From contig JAFIEO010000060.1 in assembly GCA_020832445.1 (NCBI GenBank), positions 1-56,256 on the forward strand: a DNA stretch of 56,256 nucleotides, read 5' to 3'. The position numbers were made by a program, and so were the translations under genes. This document shows, in pieces, positions 3,061-52,307 of the stretch (its first letter is position 1; each line of letters begins with the position of its first letter). The notes under the pieces are model-generated. The model was given only the letters and a program-made list of their open reading frames with translations, was not told the origin of the DNA and made no database searches. Origin of the DNA: Paracoccaceae bacterium (GTDB taxonomy: Bacteria > Pseudomonadota > Alphaproteobacteria > Rhodobacterales > Rhodobacteraceae).

Positions 3061-3079
3061 GTGACAGGAGTCACGAACG

Positions 3080-4515: not shown

Positions 4516-4750
4516 AGGTCGACCTTGGATTATCTCATAAAGGTTGCCATTACACTGCAAGTTATGTGGAATCCAAGATATTTTTTCCTTTAGTACGTCC
4601 GTTGCCCTCAATAGCCCTTAGATTTGTGGGCTCCCTTCCTTGGAACTGAAACACACCTAGCTTGTGCTTCCCGTTCACCGACTTTATGAACAATGTCAGC
4701 TGTGTCGCATAAGACCGCTGCAACTTTCTTGCCAGGGAGCAATAGGTGTA

Positions 4751-6270: not shown

Positions 6271-6273
6271 GCT

Positions 6274-7395: not shown

Positions 7396-7424
7396 ACTGT
7401 TCATTTGAAGATTGGAGTAATTTA

Positions 7425-8978: not shown

Positions 8979-9013
8979 CGCACCAATATCCGGCATAAAA
9001 GCAAGATAGGGTC

Positions 9014-10634: not shown

Positions 10635-12416
10635 ATGCGTTATATCAAGTCCTTGGCTGAGAAGTTTAACTTTGTTACGGAGGAGCATCGCCTGCTGCTT
10701 CGCTTGCTGCGAGAGCATGTTCCGGAGCACAAGAAGAAGTACTTTGTTGCTATGTCTGCAATGGTTCTCATGGCGTTCACCACTGCTGCTATGGCTTGGC
10801 TCATGGGACAGGTTGTCGACGTGATGTCGGATCCAGATCGGAAAAGCAACATATTCTTTATCTCTGTTGCGATTTTTGTAATTTTTTTAGCAAAAGGATT
10901 TTCTTCATTCGTCCAGGTTACGTTTCTAGCCCGGGCTGGGAATAGAATTGTTGCAGATAAACAGATTCAGGTATTTAATCACATGGTTCACCAAAGCGCT
11001 GATTATATCGGGAGTATTAGTTCCTCTGATCTCGTGTTGAAGGTTGCCAATAGTGTTAAAAGGGCAAGGTCTGTAATTGATATTATCGTGACTAGCTTCG
11101 TTCGCGATCTGTTGACGTTGATTGGCTTGATTGCGCTTATGTTTTATCAGCAACCAGTGCTTTCACTTGTGACGCTAATCGTTGGGCCTATAATATTGTT
11201 ATCTTTACGCAATATTCTTGGGAGAGTTAAGCTTATAATGGAGCAAGAGATGGCTGGCATGGGCTCCATTATAAAGGTCATTCAAGAAACCTCTTTAGGC
11301 ATGCGAGTCATTAAAGCGTTTGCGCTAGAAGACCGGCTTTTAGATCGGATGACTTTTGCTGCACGCAAGGTAGAGAGACGATCGAACAAAATCAAAGCAC
11401 TTGAAGCGGCGACAGATCCATTAGTTGATACGGTTGCTGGCTTCGCAATAGCTGGAGTCATTCTCATTGGATCCATAGGGATTTTGGGTGAATCCGATGC
11501 TACTCCAGGTCAGTTGATAACATTCGTAACCGCATTTCTTTTGTCATATGAGCCAGCAAAACGCCTGTCTAGAATGCGTGTGGGTCTTGAAACCGGTATG
11601 ATTGGCGTGAGAATGATGTATCAAGTACTGGATCATCCCATAACATTGGTTGAACCAGAATCTCCAAAGGTGGCACCCGAGGCGCCCATTGAGGTCAAGC
11701 TTGAAAATGTTGTGTTTGGTTATAATTCTGCCACTCGAATAATTGATGATATCAGCCATACGTTTCATGCAGGAAAGGTAACTGCACTTGTTGGGCCATC
11801 TGGGGGGGGGAAAAGTACGATCCTAAATTTGCTACTACGACTTCATGACCCTAGTGAAGGTCAGATTTTGGTAAACGGAATTGATTTAAAAGACCTTAAA
11901 TTTGCGGATTTACGAAAGCTTATCTCGTTTGTTGGTCAGGACACATTCCTTTTTGATGAAACAATTAAAGAGAATATTAGGATGGTGCGTGCAGGAGCAA
12001 CTGATGAGGAAGTTGTAAATGCAGCAAAGATAGCGAACGCCCATGAATTTATTGAGAAGTATCAGAACGGGTACGATACAATGATTGGGGAGAATGGAAG
12101 AAACCTTTCCGGAGGTCAGCGACAGAGACTTTCCATTGCACGTGCAATCCTAAAAAACGCCCCAGTGCTTTTGCTGGATGAAGCAACCAGTGCCCTTGAT
12201 AGTCACTCAGAGCGGCACATTCAGGAGGCAATTGAAGTCGTAACGAAAGGTACTACCATGATTGTAGTAGCGCATCGTCTTTCTACGGTGCTAAAGGCTG
12301 ATAAAATTTGTTATGTTGAAGAAGGCAAAATCATCGAAAGTGGAACATTGAGTGAGCTTTTGGAAAAAAATGAGAAATTCGCGCGGCTATACGAGACGCA
12401 GTTTAACGTTGATTAG
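10635..12416 (+). CDS. MsbA-like ABC exporter (fused membrane and ATPase domains)
   Basis: This 593-aa half-transporter likely works as a homodimer that flips a lipid-linked glycan or lipid across the inner membrane. The N-terminal half has about six hydrophobic segments (for example FFISVAIFVIFLAKG and LLTLIGLIALMFY). The ATPase half carries Walker A GPSGGGKST, a Q-loop (SFVGQDTFLF), signature LSGGQRQRLSIARA, Walker B PVLLLDEATSALD and the H-loop VAHRLST. It is one of the AT-richest genes of the cluster. The start at 10635 gives the usual family length (about 580-600). No other transporter, flippase or polymerase is visible in the window, so it may be the exporter for this locus, but substrate is inference. 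Confidence 0.9.
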   Translation: MRYIKSLAEKFNFVTEEHRLLLRLLREHVPEHKKKYFVAMSAMVLMAFTTAAMAWLMGQVVDVMSDPDRKSNIFFISVAIFVIFLAKGFSSFVQVTFLARAGNRIVADKQIQVFNHMVHQSADYIGSISSSDLVLKVANSVKRARSVIDIIVTSFVRDLLTLIGLIALMFYQQPVLSLVTLIVGPIILLSLRNILGRVKLIMEQEMAGMGSIIKVIQETSLGMRVIKAFALEDRLLDRMTFAARKVERRSNKIKALEAATDPLVDTVAGFAIAGVILIGSIGILGESDATPGQLITFVTAFLLSYEPAKRLSRMRVGLETGMIGVRMMYQVLDHPITLVEPESPKVAPEAPIEVKLENVVFGYNSATRIIDDISHTFHAGKVTALVGPSGGGKSTILNLLLRLHDPSEGQILVNGIDLKDLKFADLRKLISFVGQDTFLFDETIKENIRMVRAGATDEEVVNAAKIANAHEFIEKYQNGYDTMIGENGRNLSGGQRQRLSIARAILKNAPVLLLDEATSALDSHSERHIQEAIEVVTKGTTMIVVAHRLSTVLKADKICYVEEGKIIESGTLSELLEKNEKFARLYETQFNVD

Positions 12417-12598
12417 CGAAAGTTGATAATGGAGTTACAGTTATAGCAGTTGGGAAGAATTGCTTCGAAGGAATATCATGTACTGCCAATTTGAAGAGGA
12501 CATGAGGTGACGGCATTGACATCGCCATGACCAGAAGAACACAAAAACTGAGAAGGTTAGATCTCGGTGAATTAAACGACTTGGTCAAACTAATACAA

Positions 12599-13873
12599 TT
12601 AGGGGCGCGGTAGGGGTATTATTGTGTCGTCAGGCAGACCCAAGGCATCCGGCCCTGACATTGCAACGAGATTGTCAACCAATTCATCCCGCTGATCTAA
12701 GGTCATACCATACCCTCCCCAAAAACGTTTCTGCTTCGGGTCGATCTGCCACTCTTTCGGCACACCTTCGATCGCAAGACGCAGGAAGTTCCTCGCCACT
12801 TGTTCTGGTCGCCACCGTTCAGATACAAACGCGTGCGCAGCTCTGCCTATTTCATGCCGTTCGGCATTGTGGTCCAATGCCCATTTAACACAGTCATAAA
12901 GTTCGTCCGGTTCTCCAATGATCGTTGGCGGCCAGTCCTCCGCCGGAACGATACTTTGAAGAGCCTTGAGATCATAACCGCAGACAACAGTCGGGCAGCT
13001 CTGTCCAGCAGCCTCAGTCGCCAGATGAGCCATCGGTGTATCGGAAAAGACTTGATCTATAAGCAGATCAGCATTTCGCAACGTTGCCAAAACCTGCGAG
13101 TTGGGCACATTAATCAATAACTGTAGGTCAATTTTGTAGCCCTCAGATCGCAGCTTCGTGATCACTGCCTTAATCTTTTCAGTGCCTTTGGTCTCGGGGT
13201 TAGAAGGAGCGTGTACGATCTGGAAAGCGTCTGATTTCCGTTCAACTTCTTGCTGCTGTTTCGGCTTGATGTGAGTTGTCGGAATACCCACTGACAGATA
13301 TTGCGCATATGACCTATTTTGAAGTGGTGCCATCGGTGGATGGCTGACGATTGCATCCGCGTATTTCTCGATTTCTCGGAGCCAAGACAGTTTTCTGGCT
13401 CCTTGTTTCAAAAGCTCTTCGGGCTCTTTGTCGGTAAAGCTGCCATTGAGCCAAACAGGTCTCACATCAGAGCCATGAAAAACACAAATTACAGTTTTCC
13501 CGAGCGCTTTAAGGCGCTTAAGATCCCGAAGGCGGGGGCCGCCCTTGAGCATACCATCAAGCGAGGTCATGAAACCAAATATAAACACATCGTGCTGACG
13601 GATTATACGACGCCTCAGCCACTCTTCAAGAATCGGAACAAACATAAGATCAGGCCTGGTTCGGCGCGATTTCTTGGGTGCTGCTCGAAATCGCGCAGAG
13701 AGTTTCTGTAACCAACGCTCGGAGAAGGTTCCGCTACTATAGCCAAACTTGTGAGGTTTTTGAAAATAACATGATACAGGTAACCCAAGTTCAGAGAAAC
13801 CCTTATATAAGCCAGCATAGTATCCTGCTATTTCTGTGGTGCCTAGAAAAATCCGTGGCCTATCGACATTCAT
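12599..13873 (-). CDS. GT-B-fold glycosyltransferase-like protein
   Basis: This 424-aa protein has the two-domain layout of GT4-like enzymes. Its N-terminal domain starts RIFLGTTEIAGYYAGLYKGF, resembling the glycine-containing acceptor loop; VICVFHGSDVRP follows the middle of that domain. In the C-terminal domain FQIVHAPSNPETKGT is followed by DLLIDQVFSDTPMAHLATEAAGQSCPTVVCGYDL, which matches the donor-site region where GT4 enzymes have E-x7-E, here in altered form. Divergence makes the exact family uncertain. It overlaps the upstream acyltransferase by four bases (ATGA at 13873-13870) and ends the minus-strand operon 16515-12599. Confidence 0.75.
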   Translation of the reverse strand: MNVDRPRIFLGTTEIAGYYAGLYKGFSELGLPVSCYFQKPHKFGYSSGTFSERWLQKLSARFRAAPKKSRRTRPDLMFVPILEEWLRRRIIRQHDVFIFGFMTSLDGMLKGGPRLRDLKRLKALGKTVICVFHGSDVRPVWLNGSFTDKEPEELLKQGARKLSWLREIEKYADAIVSHPPMAPLQNRSYAQYLSVGIPTTHIKPKQQQEVERKSDAFQIVHAPSNPETKGTEKIKAVITKLRSEGYKIDLQLLINVPNSQVLATLRNADLLIDQVFSDTPMAHLATEAAGQSCPTVVCGYDLKALQSIVPAEDWPPTIIGEPDELYDCVKWALDHNAERHEIGRAAHAFVSERWRPEQVARNFLRLAIEGVPKEWQIDPKQKRFWGGYGMTLDQRDELVDNLVAMSGPDALGLPDDTIIPLPRP

Positions 13874-14406
13874 GGATTTAAACTCTTCTCATCTTTTTGC
13901 TTGGACTGCGCTGGGGTGCCATAGGCTATGCTCCCGTCCGGCACGTCTTTCAACACCAGGCTCATAGCTCCAATAACACAGCCCGAACCGATCCTTACTC
14001 CTTTGGCAATCACCGAATTAGGACCAACATAGCTGCTAGCACCGATGACAACCGGCGACTTCGAAATATCTTTTGTGCCTCCGCTTATGCATCTATCAAC
14101 ACTATCGTGGGAATAGATTTGAACACCAGCTGAGATGTTGCAATTGTCTCCGATTGTCAGTCCACCGCTGGCATCTAAGACTACGTTCGGACCGATCCAA
14201 ACATTTTTTCCAACTGATGGCTCACCCAAAATTACAACATTGTCATAGACCGACGATCCCTCACCAAAACCAAGCTGTCGCGCTTTTTCCCAGCGATCCA
14301 CGATGTAATCGCCAAAAGGCAGAGTCCGGATATGTTGTTCCTGTTTCTCTTCACGTGCGCGAGAAAAGAACTGACTCAGCAGAGATCGCAGATCGTCAAG
14401 ATGCAT
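13870..14406 (-). CDS. Hexapeptide-repeat O- or N-acyltransferase
   Basis: This 178-aa protein has an N-terminal helical part (about 1-50) followed by left-handed beta-helix repeats (I/V-G-x-x-x-x): GKNVWIGPNVVLDASGG, TIGDNCNISAGV, PVVIGASSYVGPNSVIAKG, RIGSGCVIGAMSLVLKDVP. The catalytic-type histidine lies in IYSHDSVDR. The enzyme probably acetylates a sugar, most likely the amino sugar made by the adjacent DegT aminotransferase (inference from adjacency). ATG at 14406 is preferred; it overlaps the upstream stop by 11 bases. Confidence 0.85.
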   Translation of the reverse strand: MHLDDLRSLLSQFFSRAREEKQEQHIRTLPFGDYIVDRWEKARQLGFGEGSSVYDNVVILGEPSVGKNVWIGPNVVLDASGGLTIGDNCNISAGVQIYSHDSVDRCISGGTKDISKSPVVIGASSYVGPNSVIAKGVRIGSGCVIGAMSLVLKDVPDGSIAYGTPAQSKQKDEKSLNP

Positions 14407-15523
14407 CTTCGAGGCACCGCGCAAGTGTGCTGGTCACACGGTCTATATCTACAGGGTGCATAGTTTCGCAAAGAGGCAGTGCTAGCCCTTGCTTTGCAAG
14501 TCGCTGCGCCACTGATTCATCCAATGTCGCGCGATATGCACGATGTGTCTGGGTGTCGCCAAGGCATTGTGCCCCGAGGTTCGTCTCAATTCCTTGTTCT
14601 CCCATCGCGACAATAATAGACCTTTGATCAAAACGCCTATCCAACACGATCATGAAGGTTTGCCAGCTTTGACCGTCTACAAGAGCCGGAAGAGTGAGAT
14701 AACCCTTTTGCTCCAAGGGTGCGAGGGCATAGAGATAGCGCTCCACCAATTGGCGACGGCTCTCGATCCAGCCCGGAAGATGCGGCAGTTGACTTAGCCC
14801 AAGTGCCGACTGAAAGTCAGTTAATCGGAAATTCAATGCTGCTTCGACAAATGCAACACCACCTTCAGCAGGTTGCATACCGTGGTTACGATGAACGCGA
14901 AAACGATCAGCAAGAACAGGATCGTCCGTTACCAGGGCGCCACCCTCTCCAGTGGTCAGGGTCTTGCGAGGATGAAAAGAAAAACAAGCTACGTCCGAAC
15001 CTTTTCCGACCATCCCAAACGATGTTCGAGCCCCCAGCGCACACGCAGCATCTTCCACTAGTTTCAAACAATACTTGTCTGATAAAGCCCTAAAACCCAA
15101 CATATCACAAGGCGTTCCAAATTCATGCACCAGCAAAATCGCCGCCAGCTTTGCTCCGGAGCTAAATGCATTAATTGCTGCCTCCGCTGCCGCGGGCGTC
15201 ATGCAATAGGTTTTAGGATCCACATCAACTAAGACAGGTGTTGCACCAACCATAACGACAGCATTTGCTGTAGCTGGAAACGTAAAATCCGGCACAAGAA
15301 CCGCATCGCCTGGTCCTATCCCCAAACCGCGCAGCGCCAAATAAATCGCCGCCGTTCCAGACGAGACTACCACGGCATGAGAAGTCCCAACAAAGGCTGC
15401 TATTGCCGCCTCAAATTCACGGCCAACAGCGCCATGCACTAGGTTCCCCGACCGTAGCACCTCGGCCACCTTGGAGATGGCCGTCTCGTCAATATTCGGG
15501 CGAGAAAGCTTTAGTTGAGTCAC
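14396..15523 (-). CDS. DegT/DnrJ/EryC1-family sugar aminotransferase
   Basis: This 375-aa PLP enzyme has [20 protein letters not shown] near the N-terminus and [18 protein letters not shown]. It carries [10 protein letters not shown], with the conserved aspartate contacting the PLP nitrogen, and [18 protein letters not shown], with the PLP lysine. It is distinct from the WbpE-type enzyme at 6274 and probably acts on a different keto sugar. Overlaps on both sides (epimerase stop at 15520, acyltransferase start at 14406) show an operon epimerase-aminotransferase-acyltransferase-glycosyltransferase. That order suggests synthesis and transfer of a second N-acylated amino sugar, which is inference. 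Confidence 0.88.
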
Positions 15524-16515
15524 TCACGAAATACCTTTTGCATGGTTGGTAGGGCCTCACTGTTTTGTCGTATCCACTCAGCTGTACGTCGAAGACCCTC
15601 ATCTAAATCGACCTTGGCTTCGAACTCAATGACGTCTCGCGCTTTATCTACCTTGGGTATCCTCAGTTCAATATCGGCCGAAAGTGGCGGCTTAAAAACT
15701 ATCTTTGATTTACTATTCAATACGCGGATCACCGACTCTGCTAGACCATGGATTGTTGAAACGGCGCGTGCATTTCCAATGTTAAAGCTTTGCCCCACTG
15801 CGTCAGGATGAGACAGCGCAGCCATGATGCCAGCCACCATGTCGTCAACATAGCACCAAGCACGAATTTGGCTGCCGTCGCCAAAAATAAATAGATCTTC
15901 GTTAGCCAGCGCCTTGCGTATGAAAATTGTCATCGCGCCTTCGCCGGTTTGGCCCGGGCCATAAACGTTAAAGGGGCGGACGATCACAGTCGGCAGCTCA
16001 TACTGCTTGTGATAGGCATGACACAGATGCTCACTCGCTAGCTTGCTCACAGCATAGGTCCAGCGAGCTTCACCCACGGCCCCTGTAATTGCATGATCCC
16101 CTTCACCGACATTGTAAGCGCGAGAACCAAAAATTTCGGATGTTGAAAACTCCACAAAGCGCTCAACGCTTCCGGTTGCATGCGCTGCTGCGAGGGCATT
16201 GGCGCTACCTAACATGTTGACGCGCATGGTTGCGACCGGGTTTTCGAGCGTTGTGTTGATACCAGCGATGGCTGCCGCATGCACGATGATCTGAGCCCCT
16301 TCGCAAGCGACGGCCAGCGCATCGGCGTCGAGAATATCACCCCTGACGATGCGTACATTGTCATGATGCGCGAGCCGAGTGCTGGTTATGGTGTCGCGCG
16401 CGAAATTATCAAAAATTACGATTTCGTTTGTGTCGGCAAGCACATCCGCCAACGTCGACCCAATAAAACCAGCTCCACCGGTAATTACGACGCGCTTTCC
16501 ATTGATTTTGGGCAT
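15520..16515 (-). CDS. NAD-dependent nucleotide-sugar epimerase/dehydratase (extended SDR)
   Basis: The 331-aa protein has the extended SDR Rossmann motif [17 protein letters not shown], the aspartate strand [10 protein letters not shown], the HAAAIAG strand, and the catalytic set S-T (EFSTSEIFG) with YAVSK. The substrate region has [16 protein letters not shown] and AWCYVDDMV. Family members act as 4-epimerases, 4,6-dehydratases or decarboxylases on nucleotide sugars; the exact reaction is not readable, although feeding a keto sugar to the aminotransferase next door would make sense. Starts at 16515, 16539 and 16557 are all possible; 16515 sits just before the first strand. It is the first gene of the minus-strand operon. 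Confidence 0.85.
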
Positions 16516-16949
16516 CTTTTCGCTTTCACTTATTTGCATTATAGTTTGTGCGGCCACAGGCTAAAGAAAACTCCAACCTCGAAACGGTCCAACATACAGG
16601 GAAATCGGATTGACCTACCTTTCGATGATATCTCATTCATGATGAGAGTACGTGGGTTTAATCGCTGCGTGATTGACACAAATCTCCATTCGCCCGTAGT
16701 GCTGATAGAAGAGCTCATATGAAAGTAATTAATGTGCTGATCAAATCAAATATGAACCACCCCGTGAGACCCAAAAAGGACAATTCTCCCAAAGGACTTT
16801 GTTCTCCAAGTTGACCGACTCACTTAACCTGAAGTTAGGTCAGTTTCTACCAAGACACACTTACATAAGTATCACATGAGTTCAATAGCTTTGCTGAAGC
16901 AACCAAGTCCATAATGGATGATCCGCTCGTCGACACCTACGCTCTACGA
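16516..16949. other. Junction between glycan locus and prophage; no gene recognised
   Basis: About 430 AT-rich bases hold no recognisable gene. A 31-codon frame starts at 16719 (MKVINVLIKSNMNH...) and stops at 16814 with no known match. The promoter of the minus-strand epimerase operon must lie at the left of this stretch, and the left end of the phage DNA at its right. I looked for a copy of the tRNA-Met 3' end (GGAGGAGGGACTTGAACCCC) expected at an attachment site and did not see one. Confidence 0.5.
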
Positions 16950-33807: not shown

Positions 33808-35316
33808 CTATTCCCTGTCTTCGCGTTCATCAGGATCGTCATCCTGCGCATCATCATCCTGCGACAGCCGCCGCTCGCCGCTTGACGGGCCGGAACTGCC
33901 CGACGGTCCCTGCGCAGGCGATCCGGGCTGGCGGAAATCCAGACCCAGTTCCCTCTCTCGCGCGCGCTCGGCCGCAATCTCGCGGTCCAGAACTTCCGCA
34001 TCATAGCCGCGTTCCGACACTGCCTGCGTGCGGCTTTTAAGACCGGCCGAGATTTGCGCCAGTTCGGCATTGGTGTCCTTCAGCGGATCGACCCAGTCCC
34101 ATTTGGTGGGCAGCCACGCACAGGCCTGATAGTCGGCGCGGCGGCGTTCATAGGAGGGCAGTGGCAGCGCGCCGGACAGCACCGCCACATCCATCCAGCG
34201 CTGCCAGACCGGCAGGCGCATCTGATAGACCATCACGCTGTGCTGCCAGGATGACACCCGCCTGCGAAACTCCATCAGCGACAGGCGCGAGTTGGAAAAG
34301 TTCCCCCGTGCCACATCGCCCGTCAGATAGGCATAGGGCAGACCCAGCGAGGCTGCGACCTGCATCAGGGTGCGAAACTGGAACGGCTCGTAGGTCGCCC
34401 CCGAATCCGCGGGGCTGGCCACAGTCACGTCCTGACCGGGCAGCAGATTGACGATCGAGCCAGGCACAACTTCCAGATCATCGCCTTCCTCGGGCATCAG
34501 CGGCGCTTCATCTTCCCCCAACGCGTTGGTGACAAACATCGCATAGAGGGCTGCGACTTTCTTGCGGTCCAGCTCTGCATCATCATACTGGTCCAACATC
34601 AACAGCTTCACGATGGCGGGGGCAAAGCGCGACACGCCGCGCAGCTGGCCCGCCTCCACCGGATCGAGCACATGGATGACGTCGGAGGCAGGCACGCGCA
34701 CCTTCTCGCCTTTCAACCCCGGCTCGGTCGGATCGGACGGGTGGCGGCGGTAGAAATGATAGGCCACGCGCCGCCCGATCCGGTCAAACTCGATCCCTTG
34801 CCGGATGACATGCCCGTCAATATCTGCGGGCCGGTTCATCTCCGTGGGCAGCATTTCGGTGGGCATCATCTGCAACTGCAAGGGCACGCGCAGCCCGTCG
34901 GTGGGGCGGCGCGGGCGAAACCGCAAGAACGCCTCGCCGGTGATGAACACCTCGCGGGCCACGCGGCGCTGCAGCCCGTAGAAATCCGTGAGCCCCTCGG
35001 CATCGGCCTCGTCGGTCCAGTCCAGAAACAATTCCTGAATGCGCAGCTTGTGGCGGGGCTGCGCAATCCGCGCGCTTGGCTTGATCCCGTCGCCCACTGC
35101 ATTGGCCGCCCAGCTTTCCACCGCATTGGACGCATAGCCGTTATTGCGCACCAGCCAGCGCGCACGGGCGTTCATCTCCGGCCCAGCCGCGGCCAGCAGC
35201 GCATTCACATGCGCACGCGCCGGACGAAAACCCTTCAGGCGGCGGTTGCCAAGGGCAGCTTCAAACCCGCCCACCCATGCGCCAAGGCGCTTGCGAAACC
35301 CTGTCATCATCGCCAT
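33808..35316 (-). CDS. Portal protein (lambda gpB family)
   Basis: This 502-aa portal protein forms the dodecameric ring through which DNA is packaged. It has GNRRLKGFRPARAHVNALLAAAGPEMNARARWLVRNNGYASNAVESWAANAVGDGIKPSA, GEAFLRFRPRR, and DVIHVLDPVEAGQLRGVSRFAPAIVKL, all diagnostic of the lambda family. The C-terminus is acidic (DDDAQDDDPDEREDRE). It starts two bases after the gpW-like gene; ATG 35310 is an alternative start. Confidence 0.92.
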   Translation of the reverse strand: MAMMTGFRKRLGAWVGGFEAALGNRRLKGFRPARAHVNALLAAAGPEMNARARWLVRNNGYASNAVESWAANAVGDGIKPSARIAQPRHKLRIQELFLDWTDEADAEGLTDFYGLQRRVAREVFITGEAFLRFRPRRPTDGLRVPLQLQMMPTEMLPTEMNRPADIDGHVIRQGIEFDRIGRRVAYHFYRRHPSDPTEPGLKGEKVRVPASDVIHVLDPVEAGQLRGVSRFAPAIVKLLMLDQYDDAELDRKKVAALYAMFVTNALGEDEAPLMPEEGDDLEVVPGSIVNLLPGQDVTVASPADSGATYEPFQFRTLMQVAASLGLPYAYLTGDVARGNFSNSRLSLMEFRRRVSSWQHSVMVYQMRLPVWQRWMDVAVLSGALPLPSYERRRADYQACAWLPTKWDWVDPLKDTNAELAQISAGLKSRTQAVSERGYDAEVLDREIAAERARERELGLDFRQPGSPAQGPSGSSGPSSGERRLSQDDDAQDDDPDEREDRE

Positions 35317-35538: not shown

Positions 35539-37566
35539 TCACTCCATATAGCGGGCGCGGTAGCTGCGCCGTGCCCGCGGTTTGCGTTTCAATATCCGCC
35601 CCGCAATCGGGGGCGTGGTCTCGGTCTCATCATTGCCATCAGAAGGCGCTTGTGTGTTTACCGGACCGGCCAGAGCTTCGGGCGCAATCTGGCCTTCCAG
35701 CGTGGACCAGCGCGTGTCATCCCAGCGATCGATCCCCAGAAGCCATGCGGCGGCGCGCGCATAGACGCGGCAATCCAGTGCCTCGTTGCGCTCGCGCAGC
35801 TGCTGCCATTCGAGTTTTGTGTAGCCGCGGCGTTTGTCGCGGCGGGTCACCAGCTGCTCGGCGGTCAGCTGCTTGATCCATTCGGACGTCACCCCGCTTT
35901 TGGGGATATGGATGAACCCTGCAGGCCAGTCGGCACCCAGCTCGATCTCTTCATCCGTGGGCGGGCTCTGGCGCAAAAACCGGTAGGTCTCGGATTTGAA
36001 ATACCCCGACTTCACAGTCCAGAGCGACAACCCGCGCCGGATCTTGCGGCCGCCCTCGGTCACATCCACCTTGCTGGGCCCGTCGACCGGGGCTTTGACA
36101 ATCCCCTCGCGCTGGCCCTTGACGGCCAGCACCTGTTCGCCGCGATTGAGCCGCGCCCAGGAATAGACCGCATCTGTTGTGGCCCCGTCACCGGTATCAA
36201 TCGCAAAGCGCGCCAGCGCCATGCGCGCGCCGCTCTCATGCGGCCATGTCTCTTGCAAAAGCGTTGTCAGCCGTGTCCAGATTTCGGGGCGCGCCGTGTC
36301 GCCTTCAATCACGATATGATCGACCAGCCAGGATTGCAGGTTGCGCCCCCAGGCCCAGATGTCGATCTCGATACGGTCGCGCTGCACATCCGCGCCCGCC
36401 GTCAGCACCAGCCCGCCCTTGGGCACTGTGCCAAGGGCGAAGGTGATCTCGCGCCGGTCATAGAGGCGCTGCCAGTCCGGGGCCTCGCCTTTCTCCTGCC
36501 ATGTCTCGCCCAGAATGGTGTTCTTGAAGGTCTTGAGCATTGCGTCATTCCCCTGCGCCGCCTCCCATGCGGCGGCGATATCGACCCATGACAGCCAGCC
36601 CAGTGGCGAATAGAGCCCCGATATGTGAAACCCCACCACGCCCGCGCGTGCGGCCCGCGCAATCGTCTCCTCGTCAGCCGTTGCATACCAAGCCGCGCCA
36701 TTGGCGGGATCCATCATCCATGTCTTGTGGCGCTCCTCGATCGGCGTCTCGCAGCTCTCGCAGTGATACTGCGCTTCCTCGGGCCGTCCTTTCGGCCAGC
36801 GCAGATGCGCGAATTTAAGCCATTGCATGGCCCCGCAATGGGGGCAGGGCACGTGATAGCGGCGCTGGTCGCTCAACTCCCATTCGCGCTCGATGCGCGA
36901 CAGCCCCGCGATGGTGGGGGTGGAGGCGAGAAACATCTTGGCGCGGTGGCCAAAGCTGATCGTGCGCGCCTCGGCCAGCGAGACCGGATCGCCCTCGCCA
37001 TCGAGATCACCGGGATAGGCATCGACCTCGTCCAGAAACACATTGCGTGCGGGCATCGAGCGCAGACCCACGGCGCTGTTGGCGCCAGTAATCAACAACA
37101 CACCGCCCGGAAACCGTTTGGACAGCACTGTATTGCCCGCATCGCGCGAGCGCGACGGCAGCACGCGGGCGCGCAACTCGGGGCTTTCATCAATCAGCGG
37201 CTCGATGCGCTGTTGCGACAGGCGCTTGGCCATATCCACTGTGGGCTGGACCAGCAGAAACGGGCCCGGCGCGATATGCACACAATGCCCCAGCCAGTTA
37301 TTGCCCGCCTCTGTCGCCCCCACCTGCGCGGCTTTGGGCAGCACCACGCGCCGCGCGGGGTGCGCAGGGCTCAGCGCATCCATGACATCGCGCATATAGG
37401 GCGTGCGGGCCGTGCGATAGGGACCCGCCTCTGCGGCCCCGCGCGACGACAGCATGCGAAACCGGTCCGACCATTGCGACACCGTCAGCGCGGGATCGGG
37501 CGCCAGCCCTGACGACCATGCACGGCGCAGCGCGTCTGCACCTTCAAAGGCCTCAACGGAAGTCAA
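35539..37566 (-). CDS. Terminase large subunit (GpA family)
   Basis: The 675-aa packaging ATPase and nuclease has the GpA-family ATP site VVLPKAAQVGATEAGNNWLG (about 62-81), Walker-B-like NVFLDEVDAYPGDLDGEGDP, and CPHCGAMQW with CESCETPIE, a zinc-binding pair. The nuclease part follows (LTAGADVQRDRIEIDIWAWG). A TTG at 37566 with AGAGG upstream is the best start; it overlaps the small subunit gene by 14 bases. The longer ATG-initiated frame to 37698 would lie wholly inside the upstream gene. Confidence 0.9.
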   Translation of the reverse strand: MTSVEAFEGADALRRAWSSGLAPDPALTVSQWSDRFRMLSSRGAAEAGPYRTARTPYMRDVMDALSPAHPARRVVLPKAAQVGATEAGNNWLGHCVHIAPGPFLLVQPTVDMAKRLSQQRIEPLIDESPELRARVLPSRSRDAGNTVLSKRFPGGVLLITGANSAVGLRSMPARNVFLDEVDAYPGDLDGEGDPVSLAEARTISFGHRAKMFLASTPTIAGLSRIEREWELSDQRRYHVPCPHCGAMQWLKFAHLRWPKGRPEEAQYHCESCETPIEERHKTWMMDPANGAAWYATADEETIARAARAGVVGFHISGLYSPLGWLSWVDIAAAWEAAQGNDAMLKTFKNTILGETWQEKGEAPDWQRLYDRREITFALGTVPKGGLVLTAGADVQRDRIEIDIWAWGRNLQSWLVDHIVIEGDTARPEIWTRLTTLLQETWPHESGARMALARFAIDTGDGATTDAVYSWARLNRGEQVLAVKGQREGIVKAPVDGPSKVDVTEGGRKIRRGLSLWTVKSGYFKSETYRFLRQSPPTDEEIELGADWPAGFIHIPKSGVTSEWIKQLTAEQLVTRRDKRRGYTKLEWQQLRERNEALDCRVYARAAAWLLGIDRWDDTRWSTLEGQIAPEALAGPVNTQAPSDGNDETETTPPIAGRILKRKPRARRSYRARYME

Positions 37567-38170
37567 TACGCACCTCTGCCAACTCCCCCAGATGCTCGCG
37601 CAGATAATGATCGAGCACTTGTTCCAACTCATGGGCCTCCACGCCCAGTTCTGCCGCCATATTGGCCGCAACCCGCGCGGGCCAGCCGGTCCAGGCATCG
37701 CGTTCCTTGCGCGCCAGATCGAACACCATCGCCACGGCCTTGTTGCGATCGACCACTTCGCCGCGCACGCGTTTGAGCTGCTCTTTTTGCAGCTGCGCCT
37801 TCAACACTTCTGTGGCCAGCCGCGCGCGCATAAACGTCACCTGACCGCCCGGTGCAGGCGCTTCACCTGTCTCGCCCAGCGTGTCCTGCACCGCATCGAT
37901 GGCCGCCTGCGGAACAGGGCGCTCTGCAGGGGTGCCAGTGCCAGCGCCATCCGCTGTGCGCGCGCCTGCACCTGCACCGCCTGCGCCGCGCTGCTTGGCC
38001 GGATCGGTCTGTCCCGACCATTGCGCATCCGCCCGTTCCGGATCGATCGTGCCATCCGCCTCGGGCGTCACACGGCCCGCCGCAATCGCCTTGCGCACCG
38101 CCGTATGCGAGCCACCCGGCAAGCCACGCGCCGCGCGGCTTTGCGCATATGCCCGTATCGACAGACCCAT
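37553..38170 (-). CDS. Terminase small subunit (Nu1-like)
   Basis: This 205-aa DNA-binding packaging protein has an N-terminal HTH-like segment (about 1-40: LSIRAYAQSRAARGLPGGSHTAVRKAIAAGR), an Ala/Gly/Thr-rich linker (60-90), and a C-terminal helical part with RARLATEVLKAQLQKEQLKRVRGEVVDRNKAVAMVFDLARKERDAWTGWPARVA typical of this family. It precedes the large subunit with overlap, and its start diverges from the plus-strand gene at 38300. Confidence 0.85.
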   Translation of the reverse strand: MGLSIRAYAQSRAARGLPGGSHTAVRKAIAAGRVTPEADGTIDPERADAQWSGQTDPAKQRGAGGAGAGARTADGAGTGTPAERPVPQAAIDAVQDTLGETGEAPAPGGQVTFMRARLATEVLKAQLQKEQLKRVRGEVVDRNKAVAMVFDLARKERDAWTGWPARVAANMAAELGVEAHELEQVLDHYLREHLGELAEVRIDFR

Positions 38171-38299
38171 CAGGCCTCCTTCTTCTTTGCCTTAGGTTTT
38201 GTCCGTAAGGCATTGTTATTATGAGTAAAAATCTTTGTTTTGCTGGCATTTCAGCAGCGTTTCCGGCATGATGAACCTGCCCCGAAAAGGAGACAGAAC

Positions 38300-38482
38300 A
38301 TGACCACACTCGAGATGATCACCCGCATCAATGACGCCATTCGCGCAGGCGACATGACCGACCTGCGCGATATGGAAAACCACGTCCGCGACCTCCTCAT
38401 CAGCGAGGACGCGCGCGACACATGGCTCGCCCTGATCGAGACCGGCACCGAGGTGGTCGAACGCAACGAGGGCGGGCTGTAA
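38300..38482 (+). CDS. Small acidic phage protein, plus-strand pair member 1
   Basis: This 60-aa helical acidic protein, MTTLEMITRINDAIRAGDM..., ending EVVERNEGGL, has an AAGGAG sequence before its ATG. I recognise no family. With the next gene it forms a plus-strand pair divergent from the terminase operon, so it is likely transcribed from its own promoter in the 38171-38299 gap. Confidence 0.6.
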   Translation: MTTLEMITRINDAIRAGDMTDLRDMENHVRDLLISEDARDTWLALIETGTEVVERNEGGL

Positions 38483-38803: not shown

Positions 38804-39298
38804 TCAGCACGAGGGGCCACAGGATGCAAATCTTGCAATCAGCTCCATATGCATTGCTTGTGCTAGTTGCTGAAGCAAGTGGTCGTCGGTACTTTGCAAA
38901 GCAATCCGGTTGGTCAGCATCCGGTCAGGAGTAGTGCGTTGTCTGAGATCAGTGATCGCCCGCACGCTTCCGGAGAACACAGTTTTTCGATCTTCCAGAC
39001 GGGTAACCTCATAGTTCACCGCTCCGCGTCGGACCCTCACATCCTCAAGCCGCTCTCCGCTTGTCATACTGATCCGGTAGTTGACCCGATATCGGATATC
39101 AGAACGGTCGCCCGGCATCACCTGCTCAACATACTTCAGAAAATTAAAGTCGTTCTCTGTGCGAGGATCTGCAAATTCAACAGATGTTAACGTCTCCCTA
39201 TGTGGCGAATTGCTGCCATATACAGGCTCGAAGCCACAGCTTGCTAACACTGTAGTCAAAGAAAATGCAGTCAGAAGCGCAGCTACCGTACGAAACAT
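38804..39298 (-). CDS. LptE-like outer-membrane lipoprotein (prophage cargo)
   Basis: This 164-aa predicted lipoprotein has a signal peptide of 20 residues with hydrophobic core and a lipobox LASC, lipidated Cys21, followed by the LptE-family hallmark CGFEPVYG. The C-terminal part has DHLLQQLAQAMHMELIARFA, matching the conserved end of LptE (A..RL...LA..I..RL). LptE plugs the LptD barrel that inserts lipopolysaccharide into the outer membrane. A phage-borne copy could alter LPS export or surface receptors in the lysogen; that is inference. It is AT-rich relative to its neighbours and carries GAAGG before its ATG. The frame continues open upstream to 39436 but the start at 39298 gives the signal peptide. 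Confidence 0.8.
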   Translation of the reverse strand: MFRTVAALLTAFSLTTVLASCGFEPVYGSNSPHRETLTSVEFADPRTENDFNFLKYVEQVMPGDRSDIRYRVNYRISMTSGERLEDVRVRRGAVNYEVTRLEDRKTVFSGSVRAITDLRQRTTPDRMLTNRIALQSTDDHLLQQLAQAMHMELIARFASCGPSC

Positions 39299-39432: not shown

Positions 39433-40152
39433 TCACAACCCCAACTCCGACAGATCAAACGCCACATCGTGCAGTTTCACCCGCGCGGGTTTTTGCGCGG
39501 GTCTCTCGCCCTCCTTTCCGGCCGGTTTTGCGGCCTGTGGGTCCCAGCGGTCATAGACCGCCCTGATGATGGCGCGGTTGTCCTGACTGCGCCCGCTCTC
39601 GTCCCAGAGCGCGTCAAACCACGCGGTGTAAAAGCCCGCGACATCGTCGCAGACATCGATATCGAACTGCTCGGTGCGCAGGTTCTTGTTCAGGTTCATG
39701 CTGGACCGCATCACGGCCGCACCGCGCGTGCCGCAGACAATGATCACGTTGGCATGCACCGACAGGCAGCGGAACGCCTCCACGCCAAGGGCGGCGATCA
39801 GCGGCCCTGCATATTTGGGCGATTTCTCGAACGTGCCGCGATCCAGCAGCACGCGCATGCCGGTGATCCGTCCTTCCTGCCGGATCGCGGCGGCGCGTTC
39901 GATATCGTAAAGCCCCGTCGTCCAGGTCGAGATGCGCACCACCGCAGGGCCCAACTCATCCACCATATGCTCCATCGCATCGATGGCCGAAAACTGGCCT
40001 GCCGTCAGCCCCGTGACCCGCACCCCCGGCGCCAGCGGGCCGATCACTTCGGCCGCCGTTTCTGTGCGATGCACCACGCGGCGCACCGCGCCCGTCCGGT
40101 AGCGCAGCGCGCGCGGCCGTGCCACTGCGCCTTTCGTTACGCGCCCCGGCAT
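39433..40152 (-). CDS. Degenerate phospholipase D-like phage protein
   Basis: This 239-aa protein contains one PLD-like half-motif. HANVIIVCGTRG (H133) stands where HxK(x)4D is expected, with N for the lysine, and MRSSMNLNKNLRTEQFDI (about 148-164) corresponds to the GSxN part. The C-terminus is basic and proline-rich. PLD-fold proteins include nucleases and lipid enzymes; loss of the lysine suggests altered or no catalysis. AGGAGG precedes the ATG, and the start overlaps the methyltransferase stop. It is the only gene between the methylase and the LptE-like cargo. Function unknown. Confidence 0.6.
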   Translation of the reverse strand: MPGRVTKGAVARPRALRYRTGAVRRVVHRTETAAEVIGPLAPGVRVTGLTAGQFSAIDAMEHMVDELGPAVVRISTWTTGLYDIERAAAIRQEGRITGMRVLLDRGTFEKSPKYAGPLIAALGVEAFRCLSVHANVIIVCGTRGAAVMRSSMNLNKNLRTEQFDIDVCDDVAGFYTAWFDALWDESGRSQDNRAIIRAVYDRWDPQAAKPAGKEGERPAQKPARVKLHDVAFDLSELGL

Positions 40153-41543
40153 CGTTGCCTCCTGACGTCTTCAAAACTGCGCCCGTCGGATTCCAGCGTG
40201 GCGGCCTCGCCGGTATAGGTCTGCCAGCGCTCCACGATGACATCGCAATAGCGCGGGTCCAGTTCCATCAGGCGGGCGACGCGGCCCGATTTGTGACACG
40301 CGATCAGCGTGGAGCCCGAGCCCCCGAACAGATCCAGCACCCTGCCGCCCTTCTGCGTGCTGTTCTCCAGCATCTCGAGGATCAGCGCGACCGGCTTCAT
40401 GGTCGGGTGTTCGGCATTGCGCGCAGGGCGTTCGGCGCGAATGATCGAGCCGTCATAGGCCTCGACCGTCAGCCCCTTGCCGGAGACGACAAAGGTCTTG
40501 TTGGCCACATCCACCTGCAGCGTGCCATCGGGCATGACGCGTAGCGGCATGACGGCTCCGTCACGCACAGTGGTCTGCTTGCGTCCCCCGTACCATGGAT
40601 GGGCCGCACCGGGCTTCCAGCCATAAAGGATGGCTTCATGCCGCCACTGGTAATCCGAGCGCCCCAGCACCAGCGAGGGCTTCACCCAGATCAGACAGCC
40701 CGACAGTTTGAAGCCCGCAGACGCAAAGCTTGTCCGAAACGCCAGCCCTTCGGTTTCGGCATGGGCCACATAGACTGGTGCCCCGCGCTTCATCACATGC
40801 AGCGCGGCCTTGAATGCGCGGGTCAGGAACTGGCGGAACTCGTTCTCCGGCAGATTGTCATTGGCGATCTTGCCTGCAACCCCTTCATAATTGACGTTAT
40901 AGGGCGGGTCGGTCCAGCAGGCATCGACCGGCCCCGCGCACATGGCCTCCACCTCTGCCAGCGCCGTGCTGTCCCCGCACATCACGCGATGCGGTCCCAG
41001 CAGCCAGATATCACCGCGTTCCGACACTGCACGTGGTGGCGGCTCGGGGATGAAATCGGGATCACCCAGTTCCGCCGCGGGCGGTTCGTCACTTTCCAGC
41101 CCGCCCAGCAGATCCTCCAGCTCTGCCTCGGAAAACCCCGTGATCTCCAGCCCGAAGCCTTCGCCTTGCAGATCGGCGAGCTCGCTGCGCAGCAACTCCT
41201 CGTCCCAGCCCGCATTCTCGGCGATCTTGTTGTCGGCGATCACCAGCGCGCGGCGTTGGGCGGGGCTCAGATGCGCCAGCGTGATTGCGGGCACACGGGC
41301 CATTCCCAGACGTTGTGCAGCCAGCAAGCGGCCATGACCGGCAACCAGCACCGAATCATCGCCGACCAGCACCGGATTGCAAAACCCGAACTCCGCGATC
41401 GAGGCAGCGATCTGGTCGATCTGCCAGTCTGGATGGGTGCGGGCGTTGCGCGCATAGGGCAAAAGTTCGTCCAATGGTCGCATCTGCACCTGAAGGGCAG
41501 AATTTCTGTTTGTCTCCATCTCGATGTTCGCTTTATGTTTCAT
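40137..41543 (-). CDS. ParB-domain / DNA methyltransferase fusion (beta class)
   Basis: The 468-aa protein begins with a ParB/Srx-type nuclease-like domain (about 17-150; VLVAGHGRLLAAQRLGMARVP, and LALVIADNKIAENAGW). A beta-class amino-methyltransferase follows: DPPY motif at 212-215 (CWTDPPYNVNY), AdoMet motif I LDLFGGSGSTLIAC near residue 403. The order DPPY before FGG identifies the beta class (N6-adenine or N4-cytosine). Such fusions are common in phages, where methylation may protect viral DNA. The start is uncertain: 41543 (MKHKANIEM), or 41519. Upstream of it the frame stays open for 166 codons of low-quality composition, which I leave out. Confidence 0.88.
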   Translation of the reverse strand: MKHKANIEMETNRNSALQVQMRPLDELLPYARNARTHPDWQIDQIAASIAEFGFCNPVLVGDDSVLVAGHGRLLAAQRLGMARVPAITLAHLSPAQRRALVIADNKIAENAGWDEELLRSELADLQGEGFGLEITGFSEAELEDLLGGLESDEPPAAELGDPDFIPEPPPRAVSERGDIWLLGPHRVMCGDSTALAEVEAMCAGPVDACWTDPPYNVNYEGVAGKIANDNLPENEFRQFLTRAFKAALHVMKRGAPVYVAHAETEGLAFRTSFASAGFKLSGCLIWVKPSLVLGRSDYQWRHEAILYGWKPGAAHPWYGGRKQTTVRDGAVMPLRVMPDGTLQVDVANKTFVVSGKGLTVEAYDGSIIRAERPARNAEHPTMKPVALILEMLENSTQKGGRVLDLFGGSGSTLIACHKSGRVARLMELDPRYCDVIVERWQTYTGEAATLESDGRSFEDVRRQRCRGA

Positions 41544-42069
41544 CCGCCCGCCGGTGGGTAGGGAGCGGCCATAAAGCTTGTCTGGTCGGCGGGGTCGGCC
41601 GCGAAACTGACCCCCGTGTCGCAGGGCGCGCCAACGCCCTGTGGCCTCCCGCAAACCGACAAGCGGTCTGCGCAAAAGTCCGAATGCGAACGGGCCGCAG
41701 CATCTGATGCCCCGGCCCGTGCGAAGTGAGGCTCCAAAGCCCCCGTTCAAGATCGAATTCAAAGCGCTGGTTGATGGTGGGGTTTCCACCCCTTTCCAGT
41801 AGTGGAAACCGGAAACCCAAAGTGGAAACCCAGAATTTTGCCCTGACGCTAGTGATCTAACGCGCCTCCGCCCCCCGCATACGCCCCGCGCCGGGAAGGA
41901 CCCGATCAGGGGGCGGATGCGAGGGGCGTGGCGTTCCCATACAACTCTGCCGATCTTATCTGTTTTTGTAGGAGATTCCGGTGTTTTTGTTAAGCGAAAC
42001 GTTCGACCTGTTGACGACCTCGAAAGGGCACGAAACGGCATCGAATGTCCTCCAATGTCCTCAATTATT
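41544..42069. promoter_or_regulatory. Long intergenic region with repeated GTGGAAACC motifs
   Basis: About 526 bases without a convincing gene separate the DUF6362 and methyltransferase genes. Three copies of the 9-mer occur: GGTTTCCAC at 41781-41789 (inverted), GTGGAAACC at 41802-41810 and 41822-41830, the last two 20 bases apart. They can fold or act as a binding array. Two copies of AATGTCCTC lie at about 42045-42063, near the DUF6362 stop. A promoter for the methylase gene presumably lies here; I cannot fix its boxes. Confidence 0.5.
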
Positions 42070-49517: not shown

Positions 49518-49738
49518 CTGCTCCCATTGCAACCCGACGTAATCAGCGCGTGCGCTTCAAGCAGGCGGATCTGTCGCGAGCGCTGAAGGCCGCAAAGGAC
49601 GCCGGGCTCGCGGTCGAGCGCACGAGGATCATGCCGACGGGCGAAATCGTGTTAGAACACCAAAGCGACGAGGTCTCGCATGACAGTGCATTCGACGAAT
49701 GGAAAGCAAGTGCGCGTAAAGCTCAAGGGTATCAATAA
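49514..49738 (+). CDS. Small phage protein upstream of integrase
   Basis: This 74-aa protein, MTAPIATRRNQRVRFKQADLSRALKAAKDAGLAVERTRIMPTGEIVLEHQ..., is basic, with a helix-strand-strand pattern common in small proteins next to integrases (possible recombination directionality factor). CGGAGGAC precedes the start. It overlaps the integrase by 59 bases. Confidence 0.6.
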   Translation: MTAPIATRRNQRVRFKQADLSRALKAAKDAGLAVERTRIMPTGEIVLEHQSDEVSHDSAFDEWKASARKAQGYQ

Positions 49739-50804
49739 GGTCCGCAAGCGGCTGGCGAACGGGACCGTTGTCACCCACTACTATGCGTGGCGGGGGAAGG
49801 GCGCACCGAAGCTGGAGGGCGTGCCAGGCAGCCCTGAGTTTATTGCAAGCTACGAGGCAGCGCACAGGCAGCGCTATACGGGGCATGATGGCACGCTTCA
49901 GGCCATTCTGAACGCCTATCAGCACTCGCCCTATTTCAAAGAAAAGGCCCCGCGCACGCAGATTGACTACATCAAGCATATCCGCCGGATTGAAACGGAA
50001 TTCGGGACCTTCCCGATTGTGGCCCTGTCCGACCGGCGCGCGCGTGGCGAGTTCCTGCGCTGGCGCGACCGGCTGGCGACTGCATCGCGCAGGCAGGCTG
50101 ATTACACGCTTTCTGTGTTGGCCCTGATCCTCGCATGGGCATTTGATCGAGGCGATGCGCCCGCGAACCCGCTGGAACGGCCAAGCAAGACATACCGGGC
50201 CACGCGCGTGGACCGGATCTGGAATGAGGACGATCTGGAAGCATTCCGCAAAGTAGCACCCGCGCATCTGTGTCTTGCGCTGGAACTCGCGCTTTGGACG
50301 GGGCAGCGTCAGGGCGATCTTTTGCGCCTGACATGGGCTGCCTATGACGGACAGCGCATACGGCTGCGCCAGAGCAAAACCGGCAGGCGGGTGAGCATTC
50401 CCGTGGCGCAGCCGCTGCGCGCCCTGCTGGAGGTCGCGAAGGCCCAGCGCAAAGGTTTGACGATCCTGACCAACTCGCGCGGGGCACCGTGGACGAGCGA
50501 CGGGTTTCGGACGTCATGGGGCAAGGTGAAGCTGGATCTGGGCGGTCTGACGTTTCACGATCTGCGCGGCACAGCCGTTACGCGGCTGGCGCAGGCAGGA
50601 TGCAGCATTCCGGAAATCGCGTCGATCACAGGCCATGCGCTGAAAGAGGCCGAATCCATCCTCGACAGTCATTACCTGAGCCGCGATTCGGGACTGGCTG
50701 ATCTGGCTATTTCCAAGCTCGAAAAGCACGCATCTGGGACGAGTTTTGCAAACCAAACTGCAAACCACGCCCTGCGGGTCTGTGGGCGGTCTGATGAAAG
50801 CTGA
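49680..50804 (+). CDS. int: Tyrosine-family site-specific integrase
   Basis: The 374-aa recombinase has an N-terminal arm-binding part (1-70), a core-binding part and the catalytic domain with R210 (TGQRQGD), K233 (QSKTG), H293 and R296 (FHDLRGT), H319 (ITGHA) and Y332 (SHYLSRD). All active-site residues are present, so it is probably active. Its gene ends 21 bases before the 3' end of tRNA-Met, the usual arrangement for tRNA-targeting phages. Confidence 0.95.
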   Translation: MTVHSTNGKQVRVKLKGINKVRKRLANGTVVTHYYAWRGKGAPKLEGVPGSPEFIASYEAAHRQRYTGHDGTLQAILNAYQHSPYFKEKAPRTQIDYIKHIRRIETEFGTFPIVALSDRRARGEFLRWRDRLATASRRQADYTLSVLALILAWAFDRGDAPANPLERPSKTYRATRVDRIWNEDDLEAFRKVAPAHLCLALELALWTGQRQGDLLRLTWAAYDGQRIRLRQSKTGRRVSIPVAQPLRALLEVAKAQRKGLTILTNSRGAPWTSDGFRTSWGKVKLDLGGLTFHDLRGTAVTRLAQAGCSIPEIASITGHALKEAESILDSHYLSRDSGLADLAISKLEKHASGTSFANQTANHALRVCGRSDES

Positions 50805-50824: not shown

Positions 50825-50901
50825 TGGTAGCGGAGGAGGGACTTGAACCCCCGACACGCGGATTATGATTCCGCTGCTCTAACCAACTGAGCTACTCCGC
50901 C
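50825..50901 (-). tRNA. tRNA-Met (CAT, elongator type)
   Basis: The cloverleaf reads with acceptor GGCGGAG paired to CTCCGCT (one G-U), anticodon loop with CAT, T-loop GGTTCAAGTCC, and an encoded CCA (50825-50827, on the minus strand). The anticodon stem and sequence match the elongator tRNA-Met of alphaproteobacteria rather than initiator. Its 3' end faces the integrase and is the likely attachment site. Confidence 0.95.
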
Positions 50902-51044: not shown

Positions 51045-52175
51045 ATGAACGGCTTAAAGCGGCAGCCCGCAGAAGTTGTGCTGATTGGCGGCGGGCATAC
51101 CCATGCATTGGTCTTGCATCAACTGGCACAAATGCCGCTGCCGGATGCGCAGATCACCCTGATCACGCCCACGCCCAAGGCCCCCTATACCGGTATGCTG
51201 CCGGGATTCATTGCAGGGCATTATACACGCGAGGATCTGGACATCGATCTGCAACACCTGATCGACAGGGTGGGTGGTACGCTGGTTCTTGGCAAGGTCG
51301 ACAGGTTGGACCGGGCGGCGGGGCTGATAGGTGGCGCGGGGTTTCGGGATATTCGCTTTGATTTTGCGGCATTGGATATCGGGATCACATCTGACCTGCC
51401 AGCACTGCCCGGATATGCAGAGCATGCTGTTTCGGCCAAGCCGCTTGGTGGATATGCGCGGCGTTGGCAGGACTGGCTGGCCGGTGTCGAGGGGGGCGCG
51501 CTGCGTCCCGATATTGCAGTTCTGGGGGCAGGGGTGGCCGGTGTGGAACTGGCGCTGGCAATGGCTTTCAGGATGAAGGGGCGTGCGCATAAGCTGCGTG
51601 TCATTGACCGGGGGCGTGCCTTGCCCAATATCGGCGGGTTCGCCCGCAAGCGGTTGCTGGCACATCTTGCGCATTTCGGAATCGAGGTTTTGGAGCATAC
51701 CGAGGTTACCGGTATCGAGGCGGATCATCTGCGCTGTGCAGACGGGCAGACCATACCTGCGTCCTTCGTGGTGGGCGTGGCGGGTACGCGCCCGCAAGAC
51801 TGGCTACACACGACCGGACTGGCGCTTGAACGCGGGTTCATCAAGGTGGACCGCCATTTGCGCACGTTGTCGGATGACCGGATATTCGCCGTGGGTGATT
51901 GTGCCCATATGACACATGCCCCCCGTCCGAAAGCAGGTGTTTTTGCGGTGCGGCAGGCACCGTTTCTGCTGGCCAACCTGCGCGCGGCACTGGGCACGGG
52001 GCCGCAGCGGGCATACCAGCCACAGCGGGATTATCTGAAACTTGTGTCGCTTGGTGACAAGACGGCGCTGGCCGACAAATGGGGGTTGCCGCTGGAAGGG
52101 CGGTGGCTGTGGCGGTTGAAAGACCGTATTGATGCCAAGTTCATGCGGCAATTCGGGCCGCATGGTGGTGATTAG
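51045..52175 (+). CDS. Pyridine nucleotide-disulfide oxidoreductase (FAD), SelD-associated type
   Basis: This 376-aa flavoprotein has the N-terminal FAD site VVLIGGGHTHALVLHQLA, PYTGMLPGFIAGHY, the second NAD(P)-binding site IAVLGAGVAGVELALA and a late IFAVGDCAHM. In many bacteria this domain (type II NADH dehydrogenase-like) is fused to selenide-water dikinase SelD; here it stands alone. The C-terminal part continues with LRAALGTGPQRAYQPQRDYLKLVSLGDKTALADKWG, where a SelD partner would normally follow. Substrate unknown. It converges with the LysM/M23 gene. Confidence 0.8.
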   Translation: MNGLKRQPAEVVLIGGGHTHALVLHQLAQMPLPDAQITLITPTPKAPYTGMLPGFIAGHYTREDLDIDLQHLIDRVGGTLVLGKVDRLDRAAGLIGGAGFRDIRFDFAALDIGITSDLPALPGYAEHAVSAKPLGGYARRWQDWLAGVEGGALRPDIAVLGAGVAGVELALAMAFRMKGRAHKLRVIDRGRALPNIGGFARKRLLAHLAHFGIEVLEHTEVTGIEADHLRCADGQTIPASFVVGVAGTRPQDWLHTTGLALERGFIKVDRHLRTLSDDRIFAVGDCAHMTHAPRPKAGVFAVRQAPFLLANLRAALGTGPQRAYQPQRDYLKLVSLGDKTALADKWGLPLEGRWLWRLKDRIDAKFMRQFGPHGGD

Positions 52176-52278
52176 AGCATATCCCGTTCATTCGCATTCA
52201 CAAGATATGCTCTAACTTATTAATTTCGCATGTTCGAGAAGCTCAAAACCGGTTCCCACTTTTGAGCAACATGCTCTA
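52172..52278. repeat. Alphaproteobacterial intergenic palindromic repeat
   Basis: Two hairpins lie end to end. The first has perfect 12-base arms TTAGAGCATATC / GATATGCTCTAA (52172-52215). The second has GCATGTT...GCTCAAAA / TTTTGAGC...AACATGC (52228-52274), ending in TGCTCTAG. The phrase CAAAACCGGTTCCCACTTTTG is typical of repeated extragenic elements in alphaproteobacteria. The stop of the oxidoreductase lies within the first arm. Confidence 0.65.
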
Positions 52279-52307
52279 GCCCTGACGTGATCCATGCATT
52301 CGCGCGC

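Follow-up and report, generated by a model that had tools for sequence, protein, structure and literature searches.

A divergent LptE homologue as probable phage cargo in a Paracoccaceae bacterium

Does a prophage of a Paracoccaceae bacterium carry its own relative of LptE, and what might a phage gain from one? The question is raised by an open reading frame on the 56,256-nt contig JAFIEO010000060.1 of Paracoccaceae bacterium assembly GCA_020832445.1, and this whole contig is referred to here as the window. The original prediction, made from the sequence alone, described the frame at 38804-39298 as a phage-borne, LptE-like lipoprotein gene that could influence lipopolysaccharide (LPS) export and superinfection. 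The frame itself was recovered as a minus-strand gene of 164 aa, and it is arranged among its neighbors as follows.

33808..35316, minus strand: portal protein (phrog_21)
35539..37698, minus strand: terminase large subunit, terL (phrog_15)
37553..38170, minus strand: presumed terminase small subunit, terS, from its place before terL and its conservation in relatives; no Pfam match
38240..38482, plus strand: small conserved phage open reading frame, 80 aa as listed, with 90% amino acid identity over its last 60 aa in the sister phage contig L084
38515..38715, plus strand: small conserved phage open reading frame of 66 aa at the other cassette edge, with 89% amino acid identity in L084
38714..39432, no strand assigned: cargo cassette of 719 bp with a GC of 0.488; L084 has other genes in its place
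38804..39298, minus strand: LptE-like lipoprotein gene, 164 aa, from its open reading frame, lipobox Cys21, CGFEPVYG motif and homology by profile, hhalign and BLASTP
39433..40152, minus strand: phage endonuclease (phrog_16945), at whose stop codon homology to L084 stops
40137..42041, minus strand: ParB-like/DNA methyltransferase fusion (PHROGs)
49680..50804, plus strand: phage integrase (Pfam), adjoining tRNA-Met
50825..50901, minus strand: tRNA-Met, the probable integration site; the match to a stretch of the close relative G033 starts at 50816

The sequence of the window protein firmly supports homology to LptE. Against a profile of 55 other LptEs, which excludes the seven extra or off-locus copies, it scored 89.9 bits, compared with 9.0 bits for the best of 500 shuffled sequences. 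When the lipobox and CGFEPVYG were removed by using only residue 30 onward, the same profile still returned 55.0 bits. Comparison by hhalign with 11 chromosomal LptEs gave a probability of 98.9 over 139 columns, and BLASTP against the host LptE gave 31% identity over 144 columns (E 5e-9 in this single comparison). Together, the profile scores with and without the motif, hhalign and BLASTP argue that the likeness is not a coincidence of motifs. The Pfam LptE model PF04390 did not match the window protein, NCBIfam gave no match, and all Pfam and PHROGs matches had E values above 0.1. PF04390 is weak for divergent relatives, as two plasmid LptE homologues fall just below its cut-off of 23 bits (20.3 and 20.7 bits) while the host LptE passes with 29.9 bits.

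The window protein alone, used as a query, matched no solved structure; a profile of 21 LptE-like rows that includes it matched 4kwy, deposited as a putative uncharacterized protein (E 7.6e-13), and the LptE structure 5tse (E 0.007). LptE folds as a sheet packed against two helices, with an expected element order of E-H-E-E-E-H. This order follows the signal helix in an AlphaFold2 model of the window protein made from a three-sequence alignment. The fold comparison proposed with the original prediction has thus been run, and the models speak neither for nor against an LptE fold, their mean pLDDT being too low at 39.0 for the three-sequence model and 37.8 for a single-sequence model. A Foldseek search with the former gave no match at E 0.001, its pLDDT being too low for a meaningful fold search.

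The features expected of a lipoprotein are in place. A hydrophobic N-terminal signal segment ends in LAS-C21 and is followed directly by GFEPVYG, so that sequence, hydropathy and alignment all bear out the predicted signal peptide, lipobox cysteine and motif. C21, G22, P25 and Y27 are invariant in the alignment of 21 LptE-like rows. A plausible ribosome-binding site, GAAGG, lies ten bases 5' of the ATG that immediately precedes the signal peptide, and a further in-frame GTG is found upstream at 39436. The suggestion that the gene is separately transcribed found no backing: no sigma-70-like promoter was found for it, where chance would give 0.7, and a single terminator-like stem, at 39343-39330, is no more than chance would supply (0.8 expected).

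Beyond the motif, the protein has diverged considerably. It keeps 26 of the 49 positions that are conserved at 75% or more in the 55 other LptEs, among the features kept being the lipobox, CGFxPxYG, P45, R91, G92 and the overall LptE length. Six of the 23 changed positions fall in the last helix (D136, A137, R140, M142, D147 and Q148), and F115, Y118 and S119 are three more. It also has two extra C-terminal cysteines; all 55 other LptEs have the lipobox cysteine only. These cysteines and the changed positions suggest that the window protein may no longer perform LptE's job or may be decaying. The searches brought to light no near relative of the gene that would serve for gauging selection.

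The surroundings of the gene are those of a tailed phage. PHROGs matches in the window comprise tail fibre, tape measure, minor tail, major head, head protease, portal, terminase, endonuclease, the ParB/methyltransferase fusion and a replication initiator, to which Pfam adds a GH108 lysozyme and the integrase, whose end is 20 bases from tRNA-Met. The right prophage border is set by the close relative G033, as the stretch fetched from that genome matches the window only from 50816 rightwards. No left attachment site was detected, in that no repeat of the tRNA-Met end rose above chance on the left side of the prophage. A polysaccharide biosynthesis cluster of lower GC occupies the left 17 kb of the window (331-16557) and directly abuts the prophage. 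To the right of the border, a stretch of about 107 bp (52173-52280) recurs in G033 and, since it receives 24 of the 25 G033 matches, is a dispersed repeat; the last 165 bases of the contig (56092-56256) have four counterparts inside a 9-kb span of G033 (L159), in both orientations and with 77-83% identity.

Comparison with the viral contig L084 shows the limits of the cassette. Nucleotide identity between L084 and the prophage is 84.5% on one side of the cassette and 87.8% on the other; the match ends at the endonuclease stop codon (39433) and restarts at 38713, making the cassette edges exact and bearing out the claim that the gene is phage-borne. The gene is AT-rich, as originally described, with GC of 0.51 in the gene and 0.488 in the cassette, against 0.627 for the prophage. 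In place of the 719 bp of the window, L084 holds 1848 bp with open reading frames of 297 aa and 143 aa (L084:3172-4882), which in PADLOC weakly resemble PDC-S42 (E 2.7e-5) and PDC-M69A (E 9.3e-4), both models of candidate defence systems, and are possibly a defence pair.

Other relatives offer a partial view of this slot. An endonuclease relative occurs in 30 viral loci, of which 15 match terS as well; in these 15 contigs the spacing between the two matches is below 75 bp in eight and 1.0-3.2 kb in seven. Several of the seven long-gap contigs contain no confidently nameable gene, so the case for a cargo slot draws mainly on the window and L084, together with L118, a relative with no endonuclease match that has a DUF3800 gene before terS. 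Within the family, only 3 of 395 genomes have an endonuclease relative, and in the two besides the host the gap between the endonuclease and terS matches is 23-113 bp. A more distant relative (L119:7644-8555) has a cytochrome b561 gene between its methyltransferase match and terS, and by eye a small cytochrome-c-like open reading frame as well. The window gene thus lies between backbone genes, is absent from relatives and differs in base composition, the marks by which a moron is recognized. We consider it almost certain that this is phage cargo homologous to LptE. In our best explanation, a temperate tailed phage, now integrated, carries the gene as a moron, and the product is a divergent homologue of the outer-membrane lipoprotein LptE. 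The whole of this explanation, with the benefit to the phage considered below, we hold with about even confidence.

As far as our searches reach, this would be the first LptE reported in a phage, in line with the original prediction, which knew of none. Viral contigs queried with the window protein, with 11 aligned chromosomal LptEs and with the extra copy of genome G382 yielded no relative. A scan of the viral contigs for L/F-A-[AGS or similar]-C-G-F-x-P-x-Y-[GA], a pattern that misses variants of the motif, gave a single match (L133), which lies antisense inside a 200-aa open reading frame and was attributed to chance. In tblastn searches of 50,697 phage records, the host LptE found no match, and the window protein found three weak partial matches only (E 0.3-0.8). 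A plasmid LptE copy used as the query gave one match at E 0.1, inside a 257-aa open reading frame of JWDelta, that we likewise took as chance. The LptE profile found nothing in six frames of 54 other phage and prophage loci, which are partial records (one of them, L117, from the same contig as L084), and did match the window as a control. Within the genus, a portal-protein relative is present in 7 of 37 genomes, and five stretches from four of these genomes had no endonuclease match, so that the slot lay mostly outside their view. Among the open-access papers found, judged by titles and abstract openings, none described a phage LptE. Bacterial genome contigs gave four matching loci: two are LptEs beside leuS (L032 and L033), and two are short weak matches of 27 residues in Paenarthrobacter (L034) and 60 residues in Phycisphaerae (L035).

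This rarity, along with the AT-rich foreign composition and the lost conserved positions, could also suggest a passenger: a functionless, decaying fragment of some bacterial chromosome. We find this highly improbable, however, because the frame runs uninterrupted from end to end and comes with a lipobox, a signal segment and a plausible ribosome-binding site, and because similarity to other LptEs spans 139-144 residues or columns.

The cargo gene is not the host's LptE. An intact LptE of 161 aa is encoded elsewhere in the same genome, between leuS and holA, and is 64-95% identical to its orthologues in the genus; at only about 31% identity to it, the window gene is unlikely to be a recent copy of host lptE. 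In the genus, LptE matches were found in 30 of 37 genomes, at 32 places including the window. Of the other 31 places, 30 were checked, and LptE is flanked by leuS and holA at every one. The window copy is instead flanked by phage genes. It resembles the chromosomal LptEs of the genus in its signal segment and lipobox, in the CGFxPxYG or CGFxPxYA motif, in its length of about 160 aa and in the homology of the mature part, and differs from them in identity, in genomic place, in its failure to match the Pfam model and in its changed positions and extra cysteines.

A second LptE is rare across the family, as far as our profile detects one. A search of the family at E 0.001 matched LptE in 189 of 395 genomes, and 27 of the 29 best-scoring loci have the leuS-lptE-holA context, the exceptions being in G280 and G382. 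In a profile search, 384 of the same 395 genomes yielded an LptE, and just two of them, the host genome and G382, yielded a pair of matches; this profile includes the window, G280 and G382 proteins, which biases it toward finding them, and at most nine candidates were scored per genome. G382 has, besides an LptE 46% identical to the host's, an AT-rich extra copy near sugar-nucleotide genes (by reading of open reading frames). In G280, leuS and holA almost touch with no LptE between them (L141, G280:C1:695000-701000), and the one LptE match is a CGFEPVYG lipoprotein gene adjoining a fatty acid desaturase gene (L071 9229-9735). On the simplest reading, this off-locus gene appears to serve as the LptE of G280, replacing the standard gene. 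A further genome of the genus, G029, which is not in the 395-genome sample, carries two LptEs, both with leuS nearby (for the second by reading), in an assembly with an estimated contamination of 4%.

LptE-like genes also occur on plasmids. The window protein matches 39 plasmid records at E 1 or below: 31 from Pseudosulfitobacter, six from Sulfitobacter and one each from Cereibacter and Sphingomonas. In Cereibacter the match proved to be an ordinary leuS-lptE-holA locus, and in Sphingomonas it overlaps annotated lptE and leuS. In the five Sulfitobacter/Pseudosulfitobacter regions that we opened (L036, L066, L067, L068 and L069), four of the genes are annotated as hypothetical proteins and one as a putative lipoprotein. 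Four of the five regions have a glycosyltransferase gene no more than a few kilobases away, with none listed in L067. These off-locus LptEs and those of G382 and G280, like the window gene, are found outside leuS-holA; they reside on a plasmid, island or chromosome, whereas the window copy is in a phage. Aligned with the window protein, they are 22-29% identical.

Kinship between the window protein and this extra-copy group, as judged from sequence trees, is not firm. A first tree grouped it with seven off-locus LptEs, that of G280 among them, at a support of 98/98; its partner there was the G382 copy, which sits on a long branch, and the tree carried a long-branch warning. A stricter tree, built from mature parts only and leaving out rows L072 and L033, had no G382 row; it kept the window protein with the remaining six off-locus LptEs (88/98) and again joined it to a long row, with the same warning. 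Placing the window protein among the LptEs of the genus itself was not rejected by an AU test (p 0.211).

The plasmid and island genes bring to mind a benefit to the host, in which an additional LptE, adapted to one particular kind of lipopolysaccharide or polysaccharide, moves between replicons with surface-sugar genes and was acquired by the phage. The glycosyltransferase genes near the plasmid copies, the nucleotide-sugar genes beside the G382 copy and the polysaccharide cluster in the left part of the window are all consistent with such cargo. The cassette itself, however, contains no glycosyltransferase, plasmid region L067 has no such neighbor listed, and the tree join to the plasmid and island proteins is uncertain; we judge this explanation unlikely.

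What, then, could the phage gain from an LptE homologue? As far as the accessible text of PMC12644819 goes, LptE occupies part of the barrel of LptD, which folds around it. The accessible text of PMC12685063 describes LptDE as the terminal receptor of some coliphages, and describes a phage lipoprotein of about 6 kDa, Rtp45, that acts at the periplasmic side of LptDE, binding the complex, preventing the receptor-binding protein from binding and blocking superinfection; the superinfection-exclusion lipoprotein Llp, described there too, targets FhuA. Each of the five genomes that we searched, the host included, has one LptD match. Given a phage-borne LptE homologue, a host with one LptD and the precedent of LptDE and Rtp45, the window protein would most plausibly act on LptD, by substituting for a subunit or by competing, although on whether it acts on host LptD at all our expectation is evenly divided. 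Control of LPS export, receptor display or superinfection by the window protein, as originally proposed, is a plausible inference, and an LptDE-directed role in superinfection exclusion is credible in light of Rtp45. Precedents for such roles are Rtp45 acting on LptDE and G280, whose only detected LptE lies outside an empty usual locus.

The most likely benefit would be that the phage LptE homologue alters the LptD surface or LPS display, blocking the adsorption of competing phages, a route to exclusion different from that of Rtp45. That superinfection exclusion is the main benefit to the phage is possible, and we rate it somewhat below even; general lysogenic conversion would be an alternative benefit. 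More specifically, newly folded LptD may take up the phage LptE, giving a hybrid translocon with changed LptD outer loops or displayed LPS that would exclude phages using LptDE or LPS as receptor. The phage would then provide a copy of its own of an essential part of the host's LPS translocon, and exclusion would work by subunit substitution. We advance this substitution tentatively, as it seems to us unlikely.

Alternatively, the product could be a lipoprotein that has kept the LptE fold but lost entry to the LptD barrel, binding instead to a different outer-membrane receptor, or to LptDE on its periplasmic side, and so excluding other phages as Llp and Rtp45 do. The 23 changed positions, the two new cysteines and the phage-borne location of the gene would suit such a protein, and the accessible text of PMC12685063 provides precedents in Rtp45, which targets LptDE, and Llp, which targets FhuA. 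Yet the lipobox, CGFxPxYG, P45, R91, G92 and LptE length are all retained, and the window protein is far larger than the roughly 6 kDa given there for Rtp45, and we regard this alternative, too, as improbable.

Action on LptD by the phage-borne LptE homologue, the reading that we favor, invites comparison with Rtp45. Both are phage-encoded lipoproteins, with LptDE as a target shown for Rtp45, in the accessible account, and proposed for the window protein; the two are likened here by description. The window protein, at 164 aa, is a homologue of LptE itself. What would be new is a phage cargo lipoprotein built on the host subunit itself and probably aimed at a known phage target. Such a protein could attack LptDE, the target of Rtp45, from inside the complex. 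It would also offer a naturally occurring LptE variant for studying the role of LptE inside the barrel, and it draws attention to the LptE-like genes on Rhodobacterales plasmids and islands, most of which are annotated as hypothetical proteins.
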